Source: Sulfurisphaera javensis (lineage in GTDB: Archaea > Thermoproteota > Thermoprotei_A > Sulfolobales > Sulfolobaceae). Taken from it: DNA of 64,000 nt. The stretch is taken from assembly GCF_041154675.1 (NCBI RefSeq), contig NZ_AP031322.1, positions 1,178,001 through 1,242,000 on the forward strand, read 5' to 3'. The notes beneath the pieces are model-generated. The model made no database searches. It saw nothing but the letters and a program-made list of their open reading frames with translations, and was not told where the DNA came from. Below are positions 49,335 through 63,874 of this stretch, one piece after another; position 1 is the stretch's first letter; each line of letters starts with the position of its first letter. Made by a program: the position numbers and the translations under genes.

Positions 49335-49418
49335 GAAAATACCCCCGTTAATAATTGTTTCGCTTTATCCGGTTATAAGTTTTTAGGGGCGAAATAGAAA
49401 TAATGAAAATGAAGAGTG

Positions 49419-49730
49419 ATGGCTGAGGCACTAGTTAAAGATAAAATAATTTTCGTGGGAAAGAAGAAAATTGCAAGAAATAGTAATAGATTTATGGTTA
49501 ATATTCCCAGTGTTTTTATAGGGAGTATTGTAGAGCCCGGAGAGAATGTTTATGTATTCTTGCGACACCCGAAAATAGGTTTAATTCCATTAGGCAATAG
49601 AAAAATAGTTACAGTGCAAACGAAAACTGGAAAAGCATATTATGTTTATGTTCCAAAAGAAATTCTTGAATTTTTGAAAATTTTTGAAGTTATCAATGAT
49701 GAATTCGAAATCTACATAATGAGAAAGTGA
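49419..49730 (+). CDS. AbrB-like small protein of element A
   Basis: About 103 residues: FVGKKKIARNSNRFMVNIPS, then IVEPGENVYVFLRHP and a second strand set KAYYVYVPKEILEFLKI. The 'N-x-F/Y-x-V-x-IPxxf' pattern resembles a swapped-hairpin AbrB/SpoVT domain, perhaps in two copies. The ATG follows a GTG one codon earlier. Its stop overlaps the GTG start of the replication-type gene, a layout typical of plasmid copy-control gene plus replicase. Confidence 0.55.
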   Translation: MAEALVKDKIIFVGKKKIARNSNRFMVNIPSVFIGSIVEPGENVYVFLRHPKIGLIPLGNRKIVTVQTKTGKAYYVYVPKEILEFLKIFEVINDEFEIYIMRK

Positions 49731-52129
49731 AGAAGTTAAAAAAAACAGAACGGGGGACGGGTATGCCTACTAATAATAAAATTAAGAGGTTAAAAAAGTC
49801 AAACGGAATTAATCATAAATCTCTTCTGGATTTTATAGTCTATAATAGCATTGAGGCAAACAAAGAAGTAGATTCCAAAAACCAGCTAGAAAACAATTCG
49901 AGAGAAGCTGAAGAATCTAGAACAAATTCCAAGTTCAATTACTCAAGGGGTATATCTGACAAGGTGGAGAAAGTGGAGGAGAATATTGATCATCTAGAAG
50001 AAAAAAATACTAATCCACTTTATCCACCAGTTAAGGATACCCCAATTCAAAAGCTGTCAGAAGATAATTACATGCCCAATATAGAAGAAAAAAGTAGTGA
50101 ACTAGAGGAAGATAAGGAGAATTCTGTAGTTTTTGACGCAAAGAACCAAGTCATAATACTGAATGCAAAGAATAGAAAAGCTTTCATTTATTTTGAGAAA
50201 GTTGAGGATACAAAAGTTGATGTTAACCTGGCTAAAGATGGCAAGATACCAGTTTATCCAGTGTATGAGCTTATTCTGAAAAGAGCCAGAAGACCAGAAG
50301 CAAAGACGCTTAGAATAAAGCTGATATGGAGAAGAAATGAGAAAGGAAATGTAGAGTGGCATATTGAGAATTATGGCGCTGTTGTTAATCAGATTTATGA
50401 ATTCCTTTCCTCTTCAAAAAAGGATAAGCATATCACTAAAGACATGGTAAAGTTAGCCTTAGACTACTTAATTAATGAAATTCCGCATGAGCCGAAAGAG
50501 GTTGATATAGTTGATTATGTTCAGTCAGACCCAGAGCTTAGGCAATTGTTTAATGAGCTAAAAAGGAATCCTATCAAGTTTGTGTTAGACCACACTGACA
50601 ATATTGTGGGGAATGAAGAGCTGAAGATCAAAATACTATACGCGGTAGTCTCTTCAGTCTTACCCCCACTTGAACAGTCCATTTACAGAATTCACCTAAT
50701 TATAAATGGTAATTTTGGAGTTGGAAAATCATCAACAGTTGAGTCAGTGCTCAACTTGTTTTTCAATAATGCTGATGGTTTCAGTGACTATATAGTCTAC
50801 AAAGCAACAAGGTTCACAAGGAATGCCCTGGGGCATCTTGATGTTGATAACTTAGATGGTAAGGTGTTCTATCTTGTACAAATGGATTATGCTGAGGGAG
50901 TGAATTATTTGAGGGAAGCTCTTGATATGGGCTATTTGATAACAATTTATCCATGCCGTGACTCAAATACTGGTGAGATTAAACAGTGTGAGAATATTAT
51001 CAAAGGAATGCCAGTTTTCATTTCAACAAATGTATCAGCAAACTTAGATGATCAGCTGTTAAGTAGAGTGTTACAGCTCTACTTACCAAGGAAAACTGAT
51101 AATGAAACCATTCACAAGGTCTTTATTAAGAAAGTAACTAAGCCCAAACGCAAAGTTGATATTACGAAAATTAAGCTAGTAACTTACGCATGGTTAAAAT
51201 CTTTGCCTAAAGATGTTGCCATACCCGAAAATGTTGCGGAAAAGATGTGGGAGTTTTACGCAAGGTACTTTAACCTTGAGAAAATCAAAAAAGATGAAAT
51301 CAATAACATTTTCAGACCAATAGACCACTTTAGGAATTTAGTTCATGTTCACGCATTAATACATGGGCATGATGTTGTTAGGGAAAATGATGTTGATGAA
51401 GTGATAAGCCTATTTAAGAAAGACTTAATCCTCTCAGCATTCCTATTATCTGAACTTGACCTTAAGATTATGAAATTCTTGAGAGATATAGGTGCTGTAG
51501 AGGAAGAAAATGGGAAAACGCCACACATGGTTAGAACTCTAGTAGTTGCGTCAGAGTTTAAGATGTATGTGCGCTCTATGAAGAATATCCTGGATAGACT
51601 GGCAAATAATGGATTGCTCATAAAAGAATTAGAAGAGGGAAGGACATCGTTATGGTGCTTAAGCCGTTATGGGCTAAATGTTGTTAATGATTTACTTGAG
51701 GGAGAACAACAACAAGAGAGTGAGGCAAAACCCTGGGAAAACTTCTTCCAACCACCAGAGGAGAAGTATGATTATATTGTATCAAAAATAGCTGATAAAC
51801 CAGAGTGGACTGTGGAAGAGTTACGCACTATGTTACAACAACATGCTGAGGCAAACACAGATGACTTGGTAAACAAATGGATTAAGCTGTTAGAAGAGAC
51901 CAAGGTTATTAGGAAGATTAGTGAGAACAAGTATAAAGCATTAGTAAAGTGGAAAGCAATTGACAGTGAGACAAAAGAGTTAGTTTATGAAGAAGAGGAA
52001 AGCTGTGAGGCATATGATGGTCAGCCTTATGATGAGAATAATAAGGTAATGAGATTATGCCTTAGTATTGGGAATGCATACATAGAGAACACTGAAGATG
52101 GAAAACGTATTTTCAGAGTGATAAAATAA
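49727..52129 (+). CDS. Large AAA+ ATPase, RepA-MCM-like plasmid replication protein
   Basis: 800 residues. A hydrophilic, low-complexity N-terminus (to about residue 130) precedes a mixed domain, then an AAA+ core: KFVLDHTDNIVGNEELKIKI, Walker A INGNFGVGKSSTVESV (near residue 330), Walker B KVFYLVQMDY, sensor MPVFISTNVSANLDDQLLSR. Winged-helix-like segments and a terminal IFRVIK follow. The order recalls the RepA-MCM proteins of small Sulfolobus plasmids. The element C protein at 60143-62329 is a distant homologue with the same NE/K core and terminal IFRVIK. The helicase role is inferred. Confidence 0.65.
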   Translation: MKKLKKTERGTGMPTNNKIKRLKKSNGINHKSLLDFIVYNSIEANKEVDSKNQLENNSREAEESRTNSKFNYSRGISDKVEKVEENIDHLEEKNTNPLYPPVKDTPIQKLSEDNYMPNIEEKSSELEEDKENSVVFDAKNQVIILNAKNRKAFIYFEKVEDTKVDVNLAKDGKIPVYPVYELILKRARRPEAKTLRIKLIWRRNEKGNVEWHIENYGAVVNQIYEFLSSSKKDKHITKDMVKLALDYLINEIPHEPKEVDIVDYVQSDPELRQLFNELKRNPIKFVLDHTDNIVGNEELKIKILYAVVSSVLPPLEQSIYRIHLIINGNFGVGKSSTVESVLNLFFNNADGFSDYIVYKATRFTRNALGHLDVDNLDGKVFYLVQMDYAEGVNYLREALDMGYLITIYPCRDSNTGEIKQCENIIKGMPVFISTNVSANLDDQLLSRVLQLYLPRKTDNETIHKVFIKKVTKPKRKVDITKIKLVTYAWLKSLPKDVAIPENVAEKMWEFYARYFNLEKIKKDEINNIFRPIDHFRNLVHVHALIHGHDVVRENDVDEVISLFKKDLILSAFLLSELDLKIMKFLRDIGAVEEENGKTPHMVRTLVVASEFKMYVRSMKNILDRLANNGLLIKELEEGRTSLWCLSRYGLNVVNDLLEGEQQQESEAKPWENFFQPPEEKYDYIVSKIADKPEWTVEELRTMLQQHAEANTDDLVNKWIKLLEETKVIRKISENKYKALVKWKAIDSETKELVYEEEESCEAYDGQPYDENNKVMRLCLSIGNAYIENTEDGKRIFRVIK

Positions 52130-52204
52130 GACTGTCAACATTTTGTCACAAAAGGAATATTATATGAAAACAATTTATATTTCGTTGTAGCTAAATTATT
52201 TAAT

Positions 52205-52236
52205 GCGTTGACAGTTACAGCGTTACTAGTCAACGC
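52205..52236. repeat. Inverted repeat beside right att of element A
   Basis: GCGTTGAC and GTCAACGC, eight perfect bases separated by 16, end nine bases before the att core. GTCAACG also occurs just upstream of the tRNA at 46267. Such arm-type dyads beside a core are plausible integrase or excision-factor binding sites. Confidence 0.55.
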
Positions 52237-52244
52237 TTTCCCAT

Positions 52245-52288
52245 CCTTACAAGGCGGAGGTCCTGGGTTCAAGTCCCAGCGGGCCCAT
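52245..52288 (+). repeat. attR of element A (44-bp tRNA-Val 3' repeat)
   Basis: Perfect copy of 46307-46350. The bases before it (CCCAT rather than CGCCG) do not restore a tRNA anticodon stem, so this is a partial copy. It is also the left border of the SSV-type integrase fragment on its right, so it marks two integration events. Confidence 0.92.
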
Positions 52289-52475
52289 TGAAGGGGGTAC
52301 CCCCTTCAACCCCCACTTTCAATTTAACGTAAGTTTTTACGACGTCATCTAAAGGACCCACGTAACGTTCCTTTACCTCACCATTTAACGTTTCCAATTT
52401 ATAGACATAATACCGCCCTTTTCTTTCCCTTATTATCACATCACCATATTTGTATCTCGTTTTTTCTTTCGTCAT
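52269..52475 (-). pseudogene. N-terminal fragment of an SSV-type integrase (intN relic)
   Basis: 68 residues, [20 protein letters not shown] to [15 protein letters not shown], ending inside the att. SSV-type integrases contain att in the gene, so integration splits them into intN and intC. The partner intC is missing from this strand, so the rest of that element has been lost. It retains its full promoter/operator. About 80% of the residues match the intN at 58689. It may still make a small DNA-binding peptide. Confidence 0.8.
52288..52309. repeat. Perfect 22-bp palindrome next to att, inside intN
   Basis: Arms TTGAAGGGGG and CCCCCTTCAA around TA touch the att core. The equivalent site in element C (58855-58878) has arms TTGAAGGGG/CCCCTTCAA with a six-base centre. 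Conserved symmetry with a changed centre suggests a recombination or protein-binding site. Confidence 0.7.
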
Positions 52476-52495
52476 TTTATCGCCCTAAATAACGA

Positions 52496-58688: not shown

Positions 58689-58937
58689 ATGAGGGAAGAA
58701 AAAACGAGATATAAGTATGGTGATGTGATAATAAGGGAAAGAAAAGGTCGGTATTATGTTTACATTCTAGAGAACGTGAATGGTGAGATAAAGGAGCGTT
58801 ACGTTGGTCCTTTAGATAAGGTCGTAAAATCATATATTGAATTGAAATTGGGGGTTGAAGGGGATGTTCCCCCTTCAATGGGCCCGCTGGGACTTGAACC
58901 CAGGACCTCCGCCGCGTCAGGGCATAAAAGAGAGTAA
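58689..58937 (+). pseudogene. intN remnant left of the element C att
   Basis: 82 codons: [40 protein letters not shown] and LELKLGVEG-like sequence, then it runs through the att out of the frame used by intC. Sequence from 58692 on matches 63943 onward, but upstream of 58690 the shared promoter/operator is absent, so it has lost its promoter. Best explained as the right end of an older, mostly deleted element at the same tRNA. A one-base shift would join it to intC. Confidence 0.65.
58878..58922 (-). repeat. att of element C (tRNA-Val 3' half, inverted)
   Basis: Bases 58878-58913 are the exact reverse complement of the 3' end of tRNA-Val(UAC). The next nine (GCGTCAGGG) read CCCTGACGC on the minus strand, so the anticodon loop is CTGACGC, i.e. 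GAC. The element therefore derives from a tRNA-Val(GAC) gene, not from the one at 46275. Confidence 0.82.
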
Positions 58938-59709
58938 AGAACGCTCTAAAAAATCGTTAGTTGCCAATTTACTCCAATATGCGACAGACGGCAACTTAAA
59001 GGACTTTTACGACTATCTAATTAATGAACGAAAAATAAGCGAAGAGACCGCAAAAGAGAGATTGCATTACTTACAAACCCGTGAGGTTAGATTATCAGAT
59101 GCGGGGATTAAAGCGTATAGACTTTTCACAAAGTTCTTAATTAGCCGTGGATTAATCAGTGAAGAGTTCGCTAACAAGATATTGAAGGAGTTAAAAGTAC
59201 CCAGGAGTAACGCCGATTTATATGTTCCTACGATTGAAGAAATAAAGCGTACTCTTCAATTAGCGAAAGAATACAGTGAAAACGTCTATCTCGTTTATCG
59301 TCTCGCGTTAGAAAGTGGGGCGAGATTAAGCGAAATATTGAAAGTGTTGAAAGAGCCAGAGCGTGATGTTTGCGATAATGGGATATGTTATTATCCATTA
59401 GCATGGACTCGCGGTTATAAAGGAGTATTTTATGTATTCCACATAACGCCCCTTAGGAAGTTGAGTATAACGCAATATGCAATACAAGACTTTGAGAAAC
59501 ACAGAGACGCTTTACCAATAAAATACATTAGAAAGTTTGTAAGTACGAAATTAGCCGAACTGGGAATTCCACTTGACGTAATCGATTTTATCCAGGGTAG
59601 AAAGCCTACTCGCGTACTAACGCAACATTACGTTTCGCTTTTCGGAATAGCGAAAGAGCATTATAAGAAGTATGCGGAATGGCTTAAGGAGTTTTATCAA
59701 CACTTATAG
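58914..59709 (+). CDS. C-terminal part of an SSV-type tyrosine integrase (intC)
   Basis: In frame with the att-encoded [20 protein letters not shown] (upstream to 58855). Catalytic domain: arginine I in [20 protein letters not shown], a diverged box [36 protein letters not shown] with the nucleophile tyrosine near the C-terminus. After integration SSV-type integrases are split, so this fragment becomes functional only when the element excises and rejoins its own intN. The intN on its immediate left is out of frame. Confidence 0.78.
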
Positions 59710-59716
59710 TAACCTA

Positions 59717-60100
59717 TACCCCGTTACCAAGCCTAAAAACCCGTGCTTTTTCCCTTCCACTAGCCGGGTTACTATATAATATTATAATGAATACCCCGTT
59801 ATCCCACGTCATTTACGCCCTTATTCCCCGTCAAATGGGATAACATATTATATTATAATGAGTACCCCCGTTAGCTCACGTTATTTACGTCCTCATTTTC
59901 CGTTATTTGAGCTAGTATTTTTTACGTGATTTTCAAACTTTATTATTGGAGTGACCTATACCCCGTTATCAGCCGTTATTTCTTGTTCTTTTTTCCTTCT
60001 GGCTGATAGTATTTTTTGCGTGATTTTCAAACTTTACCCCGTTAGCCACTGTCATTTAGGTCGTTATATTACATTTTGGTGGCTACAATTTTTTGCATTC
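59717..60100. repeat. Array of about five hairpin units with conserved CCCCGTTA and variable, covarying stems
   Basis: Units start with CCCCGTTA or CCCCGTTAGC-type sequence. Stems: 59798-59806 with 59836-59844 (GTTATCCCA/TGGGATAAC), 59871-59878 with 59908-59915 (TTAGCTCA/TGAGCTAG), 59966-59974 with 60001-60009 (TTATCAGCC/GGCTGATAG), 60042-60049 with 60079-60086 (TTAGCCAC/GTGGCTAC). Loops are pyrimidine-rich, 26-29 bases, partly alike. Units 3-5 end in a run of six T and share GTGATTTTCAAACTTTA. Unit 1 (AACCCG/CGGGTT) is divergent. Between the convergent intC and replication genes. Confidence 0.85.
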
Positions 60101-60142: not shown

Positions 60143-62329
60143 TTATAAATATTTTATCACTCTGAAAATCCCGCGTTCGTCTGTAGTTCTATCGATATAC
60201 GCTTTCGCTTTGTGTAAGCAATCCGCCATAATGTCGTTCCTATCGTCATATTCCATACCGTCAAACTTCTCACAGACGTTGTTAACGTCTCTCAGTCTGA
60301 TGTATATCTCGTTATCTGCAGTGAACGTTTCTAATCTATCTTTCAGTTTTTCGAAAGCGTCAGTACCGAAAGCGTCAATGAAGTCGCGTAATGCGATAGT
60401 CCCGTGGCTCTTTAGATATTTGTAAGCGTCTAAAGTCATAATATCTTCCGTCCCTCCTTCCATAGTTTCAGCATCTTTTCCGTTGCTCTCTGACATTCCT
60501 CTGGCGTCATTGCTACGCATGGCATTTGACGAATCTCGTTTTCCGTCATCATGAAAAAAGTCGTTTTCCGCTATACCCGTATCAGTTTCGATAACGTCAT
60601 CAGAATGTTCGAAATACGATAATAATCTCTTTCCTATCGTCGTAATTTTCCAATGGTACGCCGTACCAATTCTTTCCGATATTACTAAATGTTTTCCTCT
60701 TAACGACTCTAAAACGTCTCGTGTTATTGAGTCGTCGAAATTGGATTCCTCCGCTATAACTCTAGTCTTAGGATAATTAGCAATATCGTCATCTTCTCTT
60801 AACGACTTAGTTAATTCGTATAACGCCTCTAGAACCTTAAACTCTCTCTCACTAATACCGACAACATTATACATTATGTCGAAACGAAACTCTCCTTCAA
60901 GAACGTCCCTAAGATACTCTAATGTGATTAAATTACGTCCTTCGAAACTCGCCTTTGCTTTTAGAAACGCTAATAATATATCTAAACGTCTTTTTGCCAC
61001 TCTATCGTCGTTAGTCAATTGCTTTAAGTCCATAAGGAAATCCTCTAATAATTTAACGGCTTTTTCGTCAAATTCCACGTTTCTAGGACGAGTTAAGATA
61101 TAACCCGTGAATATTAAACGGTCTACGTCAGTAACCTTTTCGTACAACTTTAACGCTTTATTTCTTATTATCGCCCTTAATTTCTCGTCATCATCTGAGG
61201 GTAAATACGCTCTCCAAGTACGATTAAGTAATTGTTCTAACGTAATATCGTACTTATCCGTAACTATGGAGTAAATGAGCGCCGGTTTACCATATACTCT
61301 GAGCGTTCTAACTCGAAATCCATCCGTCGTTTGTTCAGTCACGAATTTGTTAATTCTTCCTTCGCTTAATATTGGTCTTAGACGCTCAAGATTTAACCCG
61401 TCAATTTGATTAACATACAAAATTCTCCCGTCCCAATTATAACCGTCTAACCATGTAATCGCCTCTTTCGTTATAACGTCGGCAATAATTACTATCTCGT
61501 CCTCTAACGACTCACCGCGAAGTAATAAGTCTAACACAGCCTCGATAGTCTTAGTCTTACCTTCGCCACTACTTCCTTCGATACCGATATTAAAACGCAA
61601 ATCGTCATTATCTAATTCTATTTGAGATGAAGTTATTGCGTACGCAATATACTTTTTGAATTTCTCATTACCGACGATTTTGGACGTTTTCTTAAATAAC
61701 CACTCGTATGGGTTCTTTTCGATATCCTTAAATTCGGGTAGTTGAGTAACGATATCTATTAATTTCACTTCTAACGTTTTCTTGCTAATTATGTTGTCTA
61801 TGTTATCACGCAATTCCTTAATCGTTACGTTTCTTTTAGTCGCTTTAGATACTTCGCTTAATGTCTCGTCACAATTATTGCTTTCGCACTCGCCTACTTT
61901 TCTATCCTTATAATAAAATGTAATATGATAAATTGGTATTAGTACGATTTTCGCCTTATTCCTATCGTTTAATCCTTTCGCCCTTATTTCGAATCTAGAA
62001 AATTTTAACGATATGTTAACGACGCTTTTGTTTTTTGCACTAACTGAAATTTTTAACGTCTCTTTTCTATACGAATCTTCGAATTCTTTTATTTTAAAAA
62101 ACCCCCCGGGATTAGTCGAATTAGTCGTTTTTTGCATAGAGTCTGAAATAAACGACGAATTCGAAGAATGGGTAGGGGTATTTGTTAACACATTGAAATT
62201 ATTTCTTCTAGATTGTACATTTTGATCGTTGACAGTTTGAGAGTTTTTGATAGAAGTTTTTGCAAACGATTCAGATTTACCTTTATTCTGTTTTTTCGCG
62301 TTTAGAATTTCACTTAGTCTTTTCGCCAT
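60143..62329 (-). CDS. AAA+ ATPase, RepA-MCM-like replication protein of element C
   Basis: 728 residues. Low-complexity Ser/Asn-rich N-terminus, then a domain with CESNNCDE, an AAA+ core (WLFKKTSKIVGNEKFKKYIA, Walker A GIEGSSGEGKTKTIEAVLDL, Walker B RILYVNQIDGLNLERLRPIL, sensor/arginine LLNRTWRAYLPSDD), winged-helix regions, an acidic linker and a terminal GIFRVIKYL. Distant homologue of the element A protein (49727-52129). Codon use is CG-rich and unlike host genes. Probably the plasmid replicative helicase. Its start overlaps the upstream gene stop by one base. Confidence 0.65.
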   Translation of the reverse strand: MAKRLSEILNAKKQNKGKSESFAKTSIKNSQTVNDQNVQSRRNNFNVLTNTPTHSSNSSFISDSMQKTTNSTNPGGFFKIKEFEDSYRKETLKISVSAKNKSVVNISLKFSRFEIRAKGLNDRNKAKIVLIPIYHITFYYKDRKVGECESNNCDETLSEVSKATKRNVTIKELRDNIDNIISKKTLEVKLIDIVTQLPEFKDIEKNPYEWLFKKTSKIVGNEKFKKYIAYAITSSQIELDNDDLRFNIGIEGSSGEGKTKTIEAVLDLLLRGESLEDEIVIIADVITKEAITWLDGYNWDGRILYVNQIDGLNLERLRPILSEGRINKFVTEQTTDGFRVRTLRVYGKPALIYSIVTDKYDITLEQLLNRTWRAYLPSDDDEKLRAIIRNKALKLYEKVTDVDRLIFTGYILTRPRNVEFDEKAVKLLEDFLMDLKQLTNDDRVAKRRLDILLAFLKAKASFEGRNLITLEYLRDVLEGEFRFDIMYNVVGISEREFKVLEALYELTKSLREDDDIANYPKTRVIAEESNFDDSITRDVLESLRGKHLVISERIGTAYHWKITTIGKRLLSYFEHSDDVIETDTGIAENDFFHDDGKRDSSNAMRSNDARGMSESNGKDAETMEGGTEDIMTLDAYKYLKSHGTIALRDFIDAFGTDAFEKLKDRLETFTADNEIYIRLRDVNNVCEKFDGMEYDDRNDIMADCLHKAKAYIDRTTDERGIFRVIKYL

Positions 62330-62661
62330 TACTCATCACCCAAAAGTATGAATCGTTCTACGTCAATTCCTTTAACGAGAATATCGCCCTTCCTAACGCC
62401 TTTTGCATCTTCGTCTTTTAGATTAAGAACGACACGATAATTCGCTAATTCTTTCGCTTTATACCATTTCTTATTTTTACTATCGTAATAATTACCGTCT
62501 AAGGGTTCTATCTCTACGCCATAGGAGTATCTCGATTTGAAGGGATTATTTAGAACTTTGGCGATAATACTTTTGCCAGGATATACGTAGATAGTTTTCT
62601 TATTAGCGGTAGGCTTTTTATTTTGATTTGCGTTATTAGATTTTGAACTGAACACCTTCAT
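62329..62661 (-). CDS. Uncharacterised element C protein
   Basis: About 110 residues: a lysine/asparagine-rich N-terminus, then a compact beta-rich region (TIYVYPGKSIIAKVLNNPFK, YGVEIEPLDGNYYDSKNKKW, KGDILVKGIDVERFILLG), perhaps an OB or SH3-like fold. Stop and start overlap with the replication gene (ATGA-type), which suggests coupled expression and a replication accessory role, such as ssDNA binding. That role is inference. ATG at 62661 fits better than one three codons upstream. Confidence 0.55.
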   Translation of the reverse strand: MKVFSSKSNNANQNKKPTANKKTIYVYPGKSIIAKVLNNPFKSRYSYGVEIEPLDGNYYDSKNKKWYKAKELANYRVVLNLKDEDAKGVRKGDILVKGIDVERFILLGDE

Positions 62662-62719
62662 TCCGACCACCTTATTTTTTCTGAAAACCCATTAGAAGAG
62701 AGGATTTAAAAAGGGCCTT

Positions 62720-63001
62720 TTACGGTTTCATGTGTCGTTTTTCCGAAATTGCACGCCTTTCCTTAATCTTTAGTACTTTTTGAACTATTTCGTTAAATAA
62801 TTTGTTATCATACGCTAAAATCCTAGCAACTTCGTCTACGTTATCTCTTACGATTCTTTCTATTTCGTCATCGCTAAACTCAATATCTTCTACGTCAACA
62901 TCAAATTCAGTATTATAACAGACTGGATAATATTCGCCGTGGTCTTTATCGACTTCGCAACTTTCTACCATTTCGTCCCCTTCAATTTCGATTTTAGCCA
63001 T
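62720..63001 (-). CDS. Acidic 93-residue element C protein
   Basis: Strongly acidic (DVDVEDIEFSDDEIERIVRD stretch) with a helical C-terminus (KLFNEIVQKVLKIKERR). No family recognised. It starts inside the end of the ribbon-helix-helix gene (overlap of eight bases), so both are co-translated. An acidic partner of a small DNA-binding protein might modulate it; this is a guess from charge and order only. Confidence 0.55.
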   Translation of the reverse strand: MAKIEIEGDEMVESCEVDKDHGEYYPVCYNTEFDVDVEDIEFSDDEIERIVRDNVDEVARILAYDNKLFNEIVQKVLKIKERRAISEKRHMKP

Positions 63002-63176
63002 TTTTATTAGCCCTCCTTTCGACGAATTCTCTTAACGCCATTCGTATCAATTCGCTCCTATTGTTTATCCCGTACTTTGCTCCGATTTTCTCGATTTCTT
63101 CCACGAACTCGGGAGTTGCATAAAAAACGAATCTTTTGACTTTAGGTTTCGATTTTTGTGACACATTTTGTGTCAT
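62994..63176 (-). CDS. Ribbon-helix-helix (CopG-like) regulator
   Basis: 60 residues: PKVKRFVFYATPEFVEEIEK gives the beta strand and first helix, NRSELIRMALREFVERR the second helix with the RSELIRMAL signature. Such small dimers repress plasmid copy-number and replication genes. The ATG at 63176 is preceded by a TATA box (TTTATATATA near 63215). The first codons form a TGACACA-TTT-TGTGTCA dyad on the opposite strand, a candidate autoregulatory operator. First gene of the minus-strand unit reading into the replication gene. Confidence 0.8.
   Translation of the reverse strand: MTQNVSQKSKPKVKRFVFYATPEFVEEIEKIGAKYGINNRSELIRMALREFVERRANKNG
63159..63175. promoter_or_regulatory. Dyad TGACACA-TTT-TGTGTCA over the RHH start
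   Basis: Seven perfect bases per arm, three-base centre, covering codons 1-6 of the ribbon-helix-helix gene. RHH proteins bind such short dyads, so autorepression is plausible. It could also be accidental, since ACACA words are common at gene starts. Confidence 0.4.
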
Positions 63177-63266
63177 ATTTCGTCCCTTATACTTTATCTT
63201 TACGTACGTATATATAAACCTTTCTATCATAAAAAGTTTATAAATAGGCGAAGAATAAGGTACCAT

Positions 63267-63440
63267 ATGAGACCGTTTGTAAGAAAAAGTGGCGCGGGTA
63301 ACGAAGTCTATTATCTTAATATTCCTAAAGATGTTGTTGAGGCTTATCAGATATCTAGAGATGATAACTTTATCCTTAGCGTAGAGAAAGACTCTGAAGG
63401 GAATCTTGTGTTGAAATACACTAGGGTTAATAAGGCATAG
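63267..63440 (+). CDS. AbrB/SpoVT-type small DNA-binding protein
   Basis: 57 residues: RPFVRKSGAGNEVYYLNIPK then DVVEAYQISRDDNFILSVEK, the swapped-hairpin AbrB pattern with IPKDVVEAY. A TATA box TTTATAAAT lies at 63236-63244, about 27 bases before the ATG, so the mRNA is probably leaderless. Divergent from the RHH gene; the two small regulators share a 90-base intergenic region, a layout common in Sulfolobus plasmids. Confidence 0.78.
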   Translation: MRPFVRKSGAGNEVYYLNIPKDVVEAYQISRDDNFILSVEKDSEGNLVLKYTRVNKA

Positions 63441-63522
63441 GTTTTTTTTACTCTCTCTATCTATATTCATTTTGAGCGTACCCCCCTACCGATTTTTGTG
63501 ACGAACGCTTATGCGTCTGACT

Positions 63523-63666: not shown

Positions 63667-63874
63667 ATTTTCACCTCTGATAGAGGTCTTTTTACATAAT
63701 ACTTGATAAAATATTGGGGGATAAATGAGGTAATACTTACCCTAAACGCTTAAATATGAATTACAAAGGATTGTCTCGCGATATCCGAGTATTATTTTTT
63801 CATTTTTTCTCGCCGATAAGGATTCTTTGCCGTCTTCTTTCAATTCACCGTAATATCACGGCAAAATTTACGGG

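Follow-up and report, generated by a model that had tools for sequence, protein, structure and literature searches.

A Tandem Array of Structure-Conserved Hairpins behind the Integrase Gene of a pSSVi-Like Plasmid Integrated in Sulfurisphaera javensis

What is a run of short inverted repeats doing between the integrase gene and the replication gene of an integrated plasmid? The question is raised by a 64,000-nucleotide stretch of the Sulfurisphaera javensis genome (contig NZ_AP031322.1, positions 1,178,001 to 1,242,000; hereafter the window), in which an array of hairpins spans approximately 59707 to 60096 on the plus strand. It starts at the stop codon of intC, the C-terminal part of an integrase gene (int) of the Sulfolobus spindle-shaped virus (SSV) type, and ends about 50 bp from the stop codon of a replication gene (rep). 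We find the hairpin to be a real, unnamed element, present in one copy in pSSVi and in a number of fuselloviruses and multiplied here and in a second genome (G016). Its structure is under selection, and we take it for a single-strand hairpin element of pSSVi-like plasmids and fuselloviruses, located on the 3' side of int and duplicated in tandem here.

Units of the Array and Their Pairing

Five CCCCGTTA boxes mark the array, at 59719, 59794, 59866, 59961, and 60037 (extent 59719–60044); the entire window holds seven, against 0.43 expected. In units 2–5 these boxes lead into hairpins with Watson–Crick cores of 9, 7, 8, and 7 bp and loops of 29, 29, 26, and 29 nt, the loop range already given in an earlier note on this DNA. 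Unit 2 (59794..59844, on the plus strand as are all units) has CCCC at 59794–59797 and the 9-bp stem GTTATCCCA/TGGGATAAC (59798–59806 with 59836–59844), and scores 69.4 bits with the covariance model introduced below. Unit 3 (59865..59923; 76.5 bits) has CCCCC at 59865–59869 and the 7-bp core TAGCTCA/TGAGCTA, which with two terminal wobbles reads GTTAGCTCA/TGAGCTAGT (59870–59878 with 59908–59916). In unit 4 (59961..60017; 71.1 bits), CCCC at 59961–59964 precedes the 8-bp core TATCAGCC/GGCTGATA (59967–59974 with 60001–60008), and in unit 5 (60037..60094; 70.4 bits), CCCC at 60037–60040 precedes the 7-bp core TAGCCAC/GTGGCTA (60043–60049 with 60079–60085). Units 3, 4, and 5 are followed by TTTTTT (T6; 59918–59923, 60012–60017, and 60089–60094), as the earlier note had said; units 1 and 2 are not. 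Unit 1 (59707..59782; CCCC at 59719–59722; 22.3 bits), correctly described there as a divergent fifth unit ahead of the others, forms no hairpin in the register of the other four; two mutually exclusive pairings are available to it, TAGTAACC/GGTTACTA (59707–59714 with 59767–59774, read from the sequence) and AACCCG/CGGGTT (59738–59743 with 59765–59770).

Other details of the earlier description needed correction. The stems had been called perfect, which holds for the 7–9 bp cores, but TTAGCTCA/TGAGCTAG and TTATCAGCC/GGCTGATAG carry a terminal T-G wobble and TTAGCCAC/GTGGCTAC of unit 5 contains a T-C mismatch, so that not all stems are perfect over 8–9 bp. The conserved box before each stem does occur five times, but its GTTA is largely stem, and the common flank is therefore (T)ACCCC; the 17-nt GTGATTTTCAAACTTTA, reported from three units, is found in two (3 and 4).

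The units lie outside genes at a spacing of 72–95 bp and are 61–80% alike, with about 8 nt and the fold in common; the foot of the hairpin is C-rich, and the loops are pyrimidine-rich and differ between units. A repeat search grouped four 33-nt copies and found two 50-nt copies (59893 and 59987) with the common tail TAGTATTTTTTRCGTGATTTTCAAACTTTA. This tail is near-identical (27/28 bases) behind unit 3 (59913–59942) and unit 4 (60007–60036), both on the plus strand, and by this likeness is the mark of a recent tandem duplication. A box resembling a transcription factor B recognition element (BRE) with TATA box, CAAACTTTATTA (59934..59945, plus strand; 0.06 expected in 3.4 kb), lies 20–30 nt before unit 4 and would put a candidate start site near the foot of that unit; AT-rich boxes also precede units 2 and 3 and the units of pSSVi and SSV22.

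When the 401-nt region was shuffled 400 times with its dinucleotides kept, no shuffle reached four non-overlapping hairpins of this kind (mean 0.15). Among six aligned units, 95.8% of the cells are paired versus 74% in shuffles, with changes on both sides in four of the eight pairs and a covariation score of 0.60, against 0.18 when shuffled and at most 0.13 in slid controls. With ten units, 87.5% are paired, 13 cells are double-changed versus 4.5 in shuffles, and the score is 0.453 versus 0.124, the rows being related, so that these counts are not independent events. Within the array, units 3 and 4 agree at 27 of 28 positions in the 3' flank but at only four of eight in each arm: Both arms have therefore changed together. 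The viral units overlap the end of a DnaA-like coding sequence; the array in S. javensis lies outside genes yet pairs as well or better, and coding is therefore no explanation for the pairing. Chance inverted repeats are rejected on the shuffles and slid controls, and on this pairing evidence the hairpin element is real and its structure selected.

Homologous Hairpins in Plasmids, Viruses, and Genomes

A covariance model was built from units 2–5 together with the units of pSSVi and ASV1. In pSSVi (NC_013777), a single unit stands directly behind int, reading ACCCCCG, TTATCCAC, 28 nt, and GTGGATAG (L002 3686); ASV1 has one unit with a single mismatch (L033 1306). Further members are SSV22 (49.6 bits), G025 (43.3), G015 (38.9), G018 (27.7 and 25.3), and, weakly, G009 (25.3). 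All homologues are 3' of an SSV-type integrase gene and in integrase sense, mostly as single copies; pSSVi and the fusellovirus int/DnaA-like junction have the same hairpin at the identical place, but in one copy, not in tandem. The next gene is convergent in ASV1, SSV22, G025, G015, G009, and the S. javensis element. Which gene lies beyond the unit changes between elements: The unit adjoins rep in the S. javensis element and G009, whereas in pSSVi and G016 it stands behind int with rep elsewhere. Inserts of approximately 100–500 bp separate int and unit in L096–L099.

Hairpins with unrelated stems, assigned to the family for their location and flank and not for their sequence, occur behind int in SSV20 (GTTTAGGAC/GTCCTAAAC, loop 27, after GACC), in the Kamchatka SSVs (CCGAGTACCTA/TAGGTACTCGG, loop 30, after AACCCGTT), and in SSV1 (TATCACTAT/GTAGTGATG including two wobbles, after TTACCCG). 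A second array was found behind int in G016; its five to six units follow ACCCC(C)GTAT and have the stems TATGCTGAA/TTCAGTATA, GTATCAAG/CTTGATAC, GTATACGGAA/TTCAGTATAC and TATGTGAAA/TTTCACTTA (one mismatch each), and CGTATACGGAA/TTCCGTATATG. Taken alone this array is only moderately unlikely, four hairpins being reached by 7 of 400 shuffles, but its place and flank match the family. By eye, an inner stem within the long loops of its units 2 and 4 (L152) seems conserved in pairing (GTCGTGAATTCACGTGA vs. GTCATGGATTTACATGA).

The covariation that the earlier note had read as selection for structure is thus borne out inside the array and by homologues of other elements, and a second array is known from G016. 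The same note had held that relatives lacking the region, or having it with no compensatory change, would speak against it; the relatives mostly favor it, but no unit stands directly behind int in the integrated relatives in G010, G012, G013, G014, G023, and G029. The covariance model missed the G016 array, which makes its negatives weak. Searching the viral and genome collections with the integrase and Rep (replication protein) added hardly any loci or none. A pattern of three CCCCGT boxes, applied across the order, found arrays within the family only here and in G016, with the three matches of G020 left out; most other matches seem attributable to chance in genomes of higher GC content. A weak model match in L101, which resembles protein-coding sequence, was disregarded. 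No feature is annotated on the hairpin in the pSSVi and fusellovirus records consulted, and Rfam 15 gave no covariance-model match at the gathering score (best chance match E 2.9), so that a known Rfam RNA was rejected. Two familiar kinds of array were also rejected: One of clustered regularly interspaced short palindromic repeats (CRISPR) would have near-identical repeats, absent among copies so dissimilar, and one of integron attC sites would need room for cassettes, which the spacing does not leave, and an integrase of the IntI type instead of the SSV type.

The Carrier Element and a Second Hairpin next to int

By its gene content, largely that of pSSVi, the carrier of the array is a pSSVi-like plasmid of approximately 5.3 kb integrated in a tRNA-Val gene. 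The gene intC (58855..59709, plus strand) matches Pfam PF16795 (E 1.2e-60) and is 70% identical to the pSSVi integrase. The convergent rep (60143..62329, minus strand) encodes a replication-type protein of 728 aa with a P-loop ATPase and a winged-helix region, related to pSSVi RepA and to fusellovirus proteins (phrog_24043); a profile search gave no match to archaeo-eukaryotic primase (AEP) or superfamily 3 (SF3) helicase, and a single-sequence structure prediction (predicted local distance difference test, 36) was unusable. To its right follow orf113 (62329..62670, minus strand; related to the small open reading frame ahead of pSSVi rep), orf93, a CopG/ribbon-helix-helix protein (62994..63470, minus strand; Pfam RHH_1, E 0.00019), and another small open reading frame. 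The intN fragment (L023 944–1171), just beyond the window, overlaps the intact tRNA-Val (L023 1126–1202).

An extra intN-like fragment (PF07935; 58689–58937) adjoins intC at the attachment sequence in a different frame and suggests a tandem integration or the remnant of a former neighbor. Farther away, 49400–52480 is, from its content, the remains of another integrated element: It holds a second, related Rep-like gene (27% identical; approximately 50447–52126), and where the 3' end of the tRNA recurs there is a remnant of intN in inverted orientation.

A second, sequence-conserved hairpin lies upstream of SSV-type int, at 63846 (minus) of the window and at L002 2587 (minus), L029 209 (minus), L036 1717 (minus), L103 3128 (plus), and L104 3525 (minus). 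Its stem is TTTGCCGT/ACGGCAAA, and its loop holds GAATTGAAAG, in several elements TAGAATTGAAAG. With this motif the loop has the 3'-terminal part of the CRISPR repeat of S. islandicus, GATAATCTACTATAGAATTGAAAG (PMC6452263), and with it the crRNA tag AUUGAAAG (PMC4005642). The hairpin is possibly a solitary CRISPR repeat or an RNA decoy. At the homologous place in the Sulfolobus super-elliptical virus (L032 232, minus), ACTATAGAATTGAAAG is identical to the CRISPR repeat of the host over 16 nt. In the Kamchatka SSVs and one Yellowstone SSV, the hairpin behind int carries TAGAATTGAAAG in its loop (L025 869, L030 877, and L034 1388, all plus).

Transcript End, Replication Hairpin, or Other Functions

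Of the possible functions, we tentatively favor that of an RNA hairpin with which the integrase transcript would end, at slightly less than even confidence, and prefer it to a role in replication such as the pRN1 hairpin has. A function on the int-sense strand is preferred because all units point the same way as int and the next gene is convergent in most elements. The element would act as RNA within the int-sense transcript, where each hairpin would define or protect a 3' end, the T6 tracts of units 3–5 would be release sites, and the convergent rep or DnaA-like gene would be shielded from antisense transcription coming from int, a barrier that tandem copies would strengthen. The T6 tracts fit such a transcript end, and we count in its favor that carrier-state transcription of int is known for SSV1 (PMC9608457). 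Several points weigh against it. Archaeal intrinsic termination needs a U-tract and not a hairpin (PMC7289017), which argues against a bare terminator, and T6 is missing from units 1 and 2, the pSSVi unit, and most G016 units. Three units are followed by a T-rich tract where a viral-type gene ends, as in the SSV1 terminators (PMC9608457), but their exact motif TTTTTYT is absent from the plus strand of the array (L001), and hairpins are no part of archaeal terminators. A folding-strand test of the terminal stem pairs gave G-U versus A-C at 10 to 8, which does not single out a strand, with another helix picked in a few members; and int may be silent in integrated copies.

By analogy, the array may instead be a multi-hairpin origin, a lagging-strand start, or a Rep-binding region at the 3' end of rep, an alternative clearly less probable than the transcript end but ahead of the others. 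The array ends close to the rep stop codon, the viral units abut the DnaA-like gene, and the stem-loop 3' of rep in the pRN plasmids (orf904 in pRN1, a putative replication origin) is essential and conserved in structure, with variable sequence and better conserved flanks (PMC4234260; PMC3869888), also in Sulfolobales and, as here, 3' of a replication gene. The pRN1 element is, however, a single one of approximately 100 nt with a 21-bp stem and a 58-nt loop, in place of four to five copies with 7–9 bp cores and loops of 26–29 nt, and its Rep combines AEP primase, SF3 helicase, and winged helix; for the S. javensis protein the searches gave a P-loop and a winged helix and no AEP or SF3 profile match. 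In pSSVi and G016 the hairpin is tied to int and not to rep, and a unit behind int is missing from the Rep-bearing integrated relatives in G010, G012, G013, and G029. The comparison does not support placing the hairpin in the pRN1 origin family, because two defining features (position 3' of rep in all members and a single ~100-nt stem-loop) are not found; it may nevertheless work similarly. The integrative virus SNJ2 likewise has an essential hairpin behind its replication gene, in part of which structure outweighs sequence (PMC13107129), but with a Rep of the Rep-Arvir endonuclease family, one hairpin, and a distant haloarchaeal host. GC skew, confounded by coding direction, has its maximum at or near the int junction in four SSVs, a pattern that ASV1 and pSSVi do not show; in SSV1 the hairpin sits at the maximum (897), the minimum (5690) being near the Tind region once proposed as the origin. 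SSV1 lacking int replicates in some hosts, a deletion that may or may not include the hairpin. Rather unlikely is a new class of structured element in archaeal plasmids and spindle-shaped viruses, its arms diversifying between constant flanks with tandem amplification, as a multi-hairpin RNA, either an array of small RNAs or a set of mutually orthogonal 3'-end hairpins, which would control integrase or replication and discriminate co-resident elements. We consider more doubtful still a plain array of small-RNA genes, each with promoter, 55–60 nt hairpin RNA, and T6 terminator, acting in trans as antisense or decoy: The BRE/TATA-like and AT-rich boxes, the T6 tracts, and the varying loops would suit it, but promoter and terminator are inconsistent among units, and an Rfam match is absent. 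Structure-recognized DNA sites for the integrase or for module exchange at the int border would fit the change of neighboring gene at the unit and the inserts in L096–L099; the spacing without cassettes and an attachment site that is a tRNA-like sequence inside int make them very improbable. Least probable of all is that the repeats are chance or a functionless by-product of tandem duplication, to which the recently duplicated tails and the shuffles of the G016 array could be credited; double changes retain pairing between units and between distant elements, and with no shuffle matching the S. javensis array such an account is refuted as a full one, the residual doubt being the phylogenetic dependence of the rows.

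With this finding, the int/rep junction of fuselloviruses and pSSVi-like plasmids, in which the control of replication and integrase is poorly understood, gains a structured element backed by covariation. The tandem copies display compensatory change inside one molecule, with strongly changed stems between near-identical flanks, and the hairpin is a short target that can be tested where laboratory systems exist, as they do for SSV1 and pSSVi.
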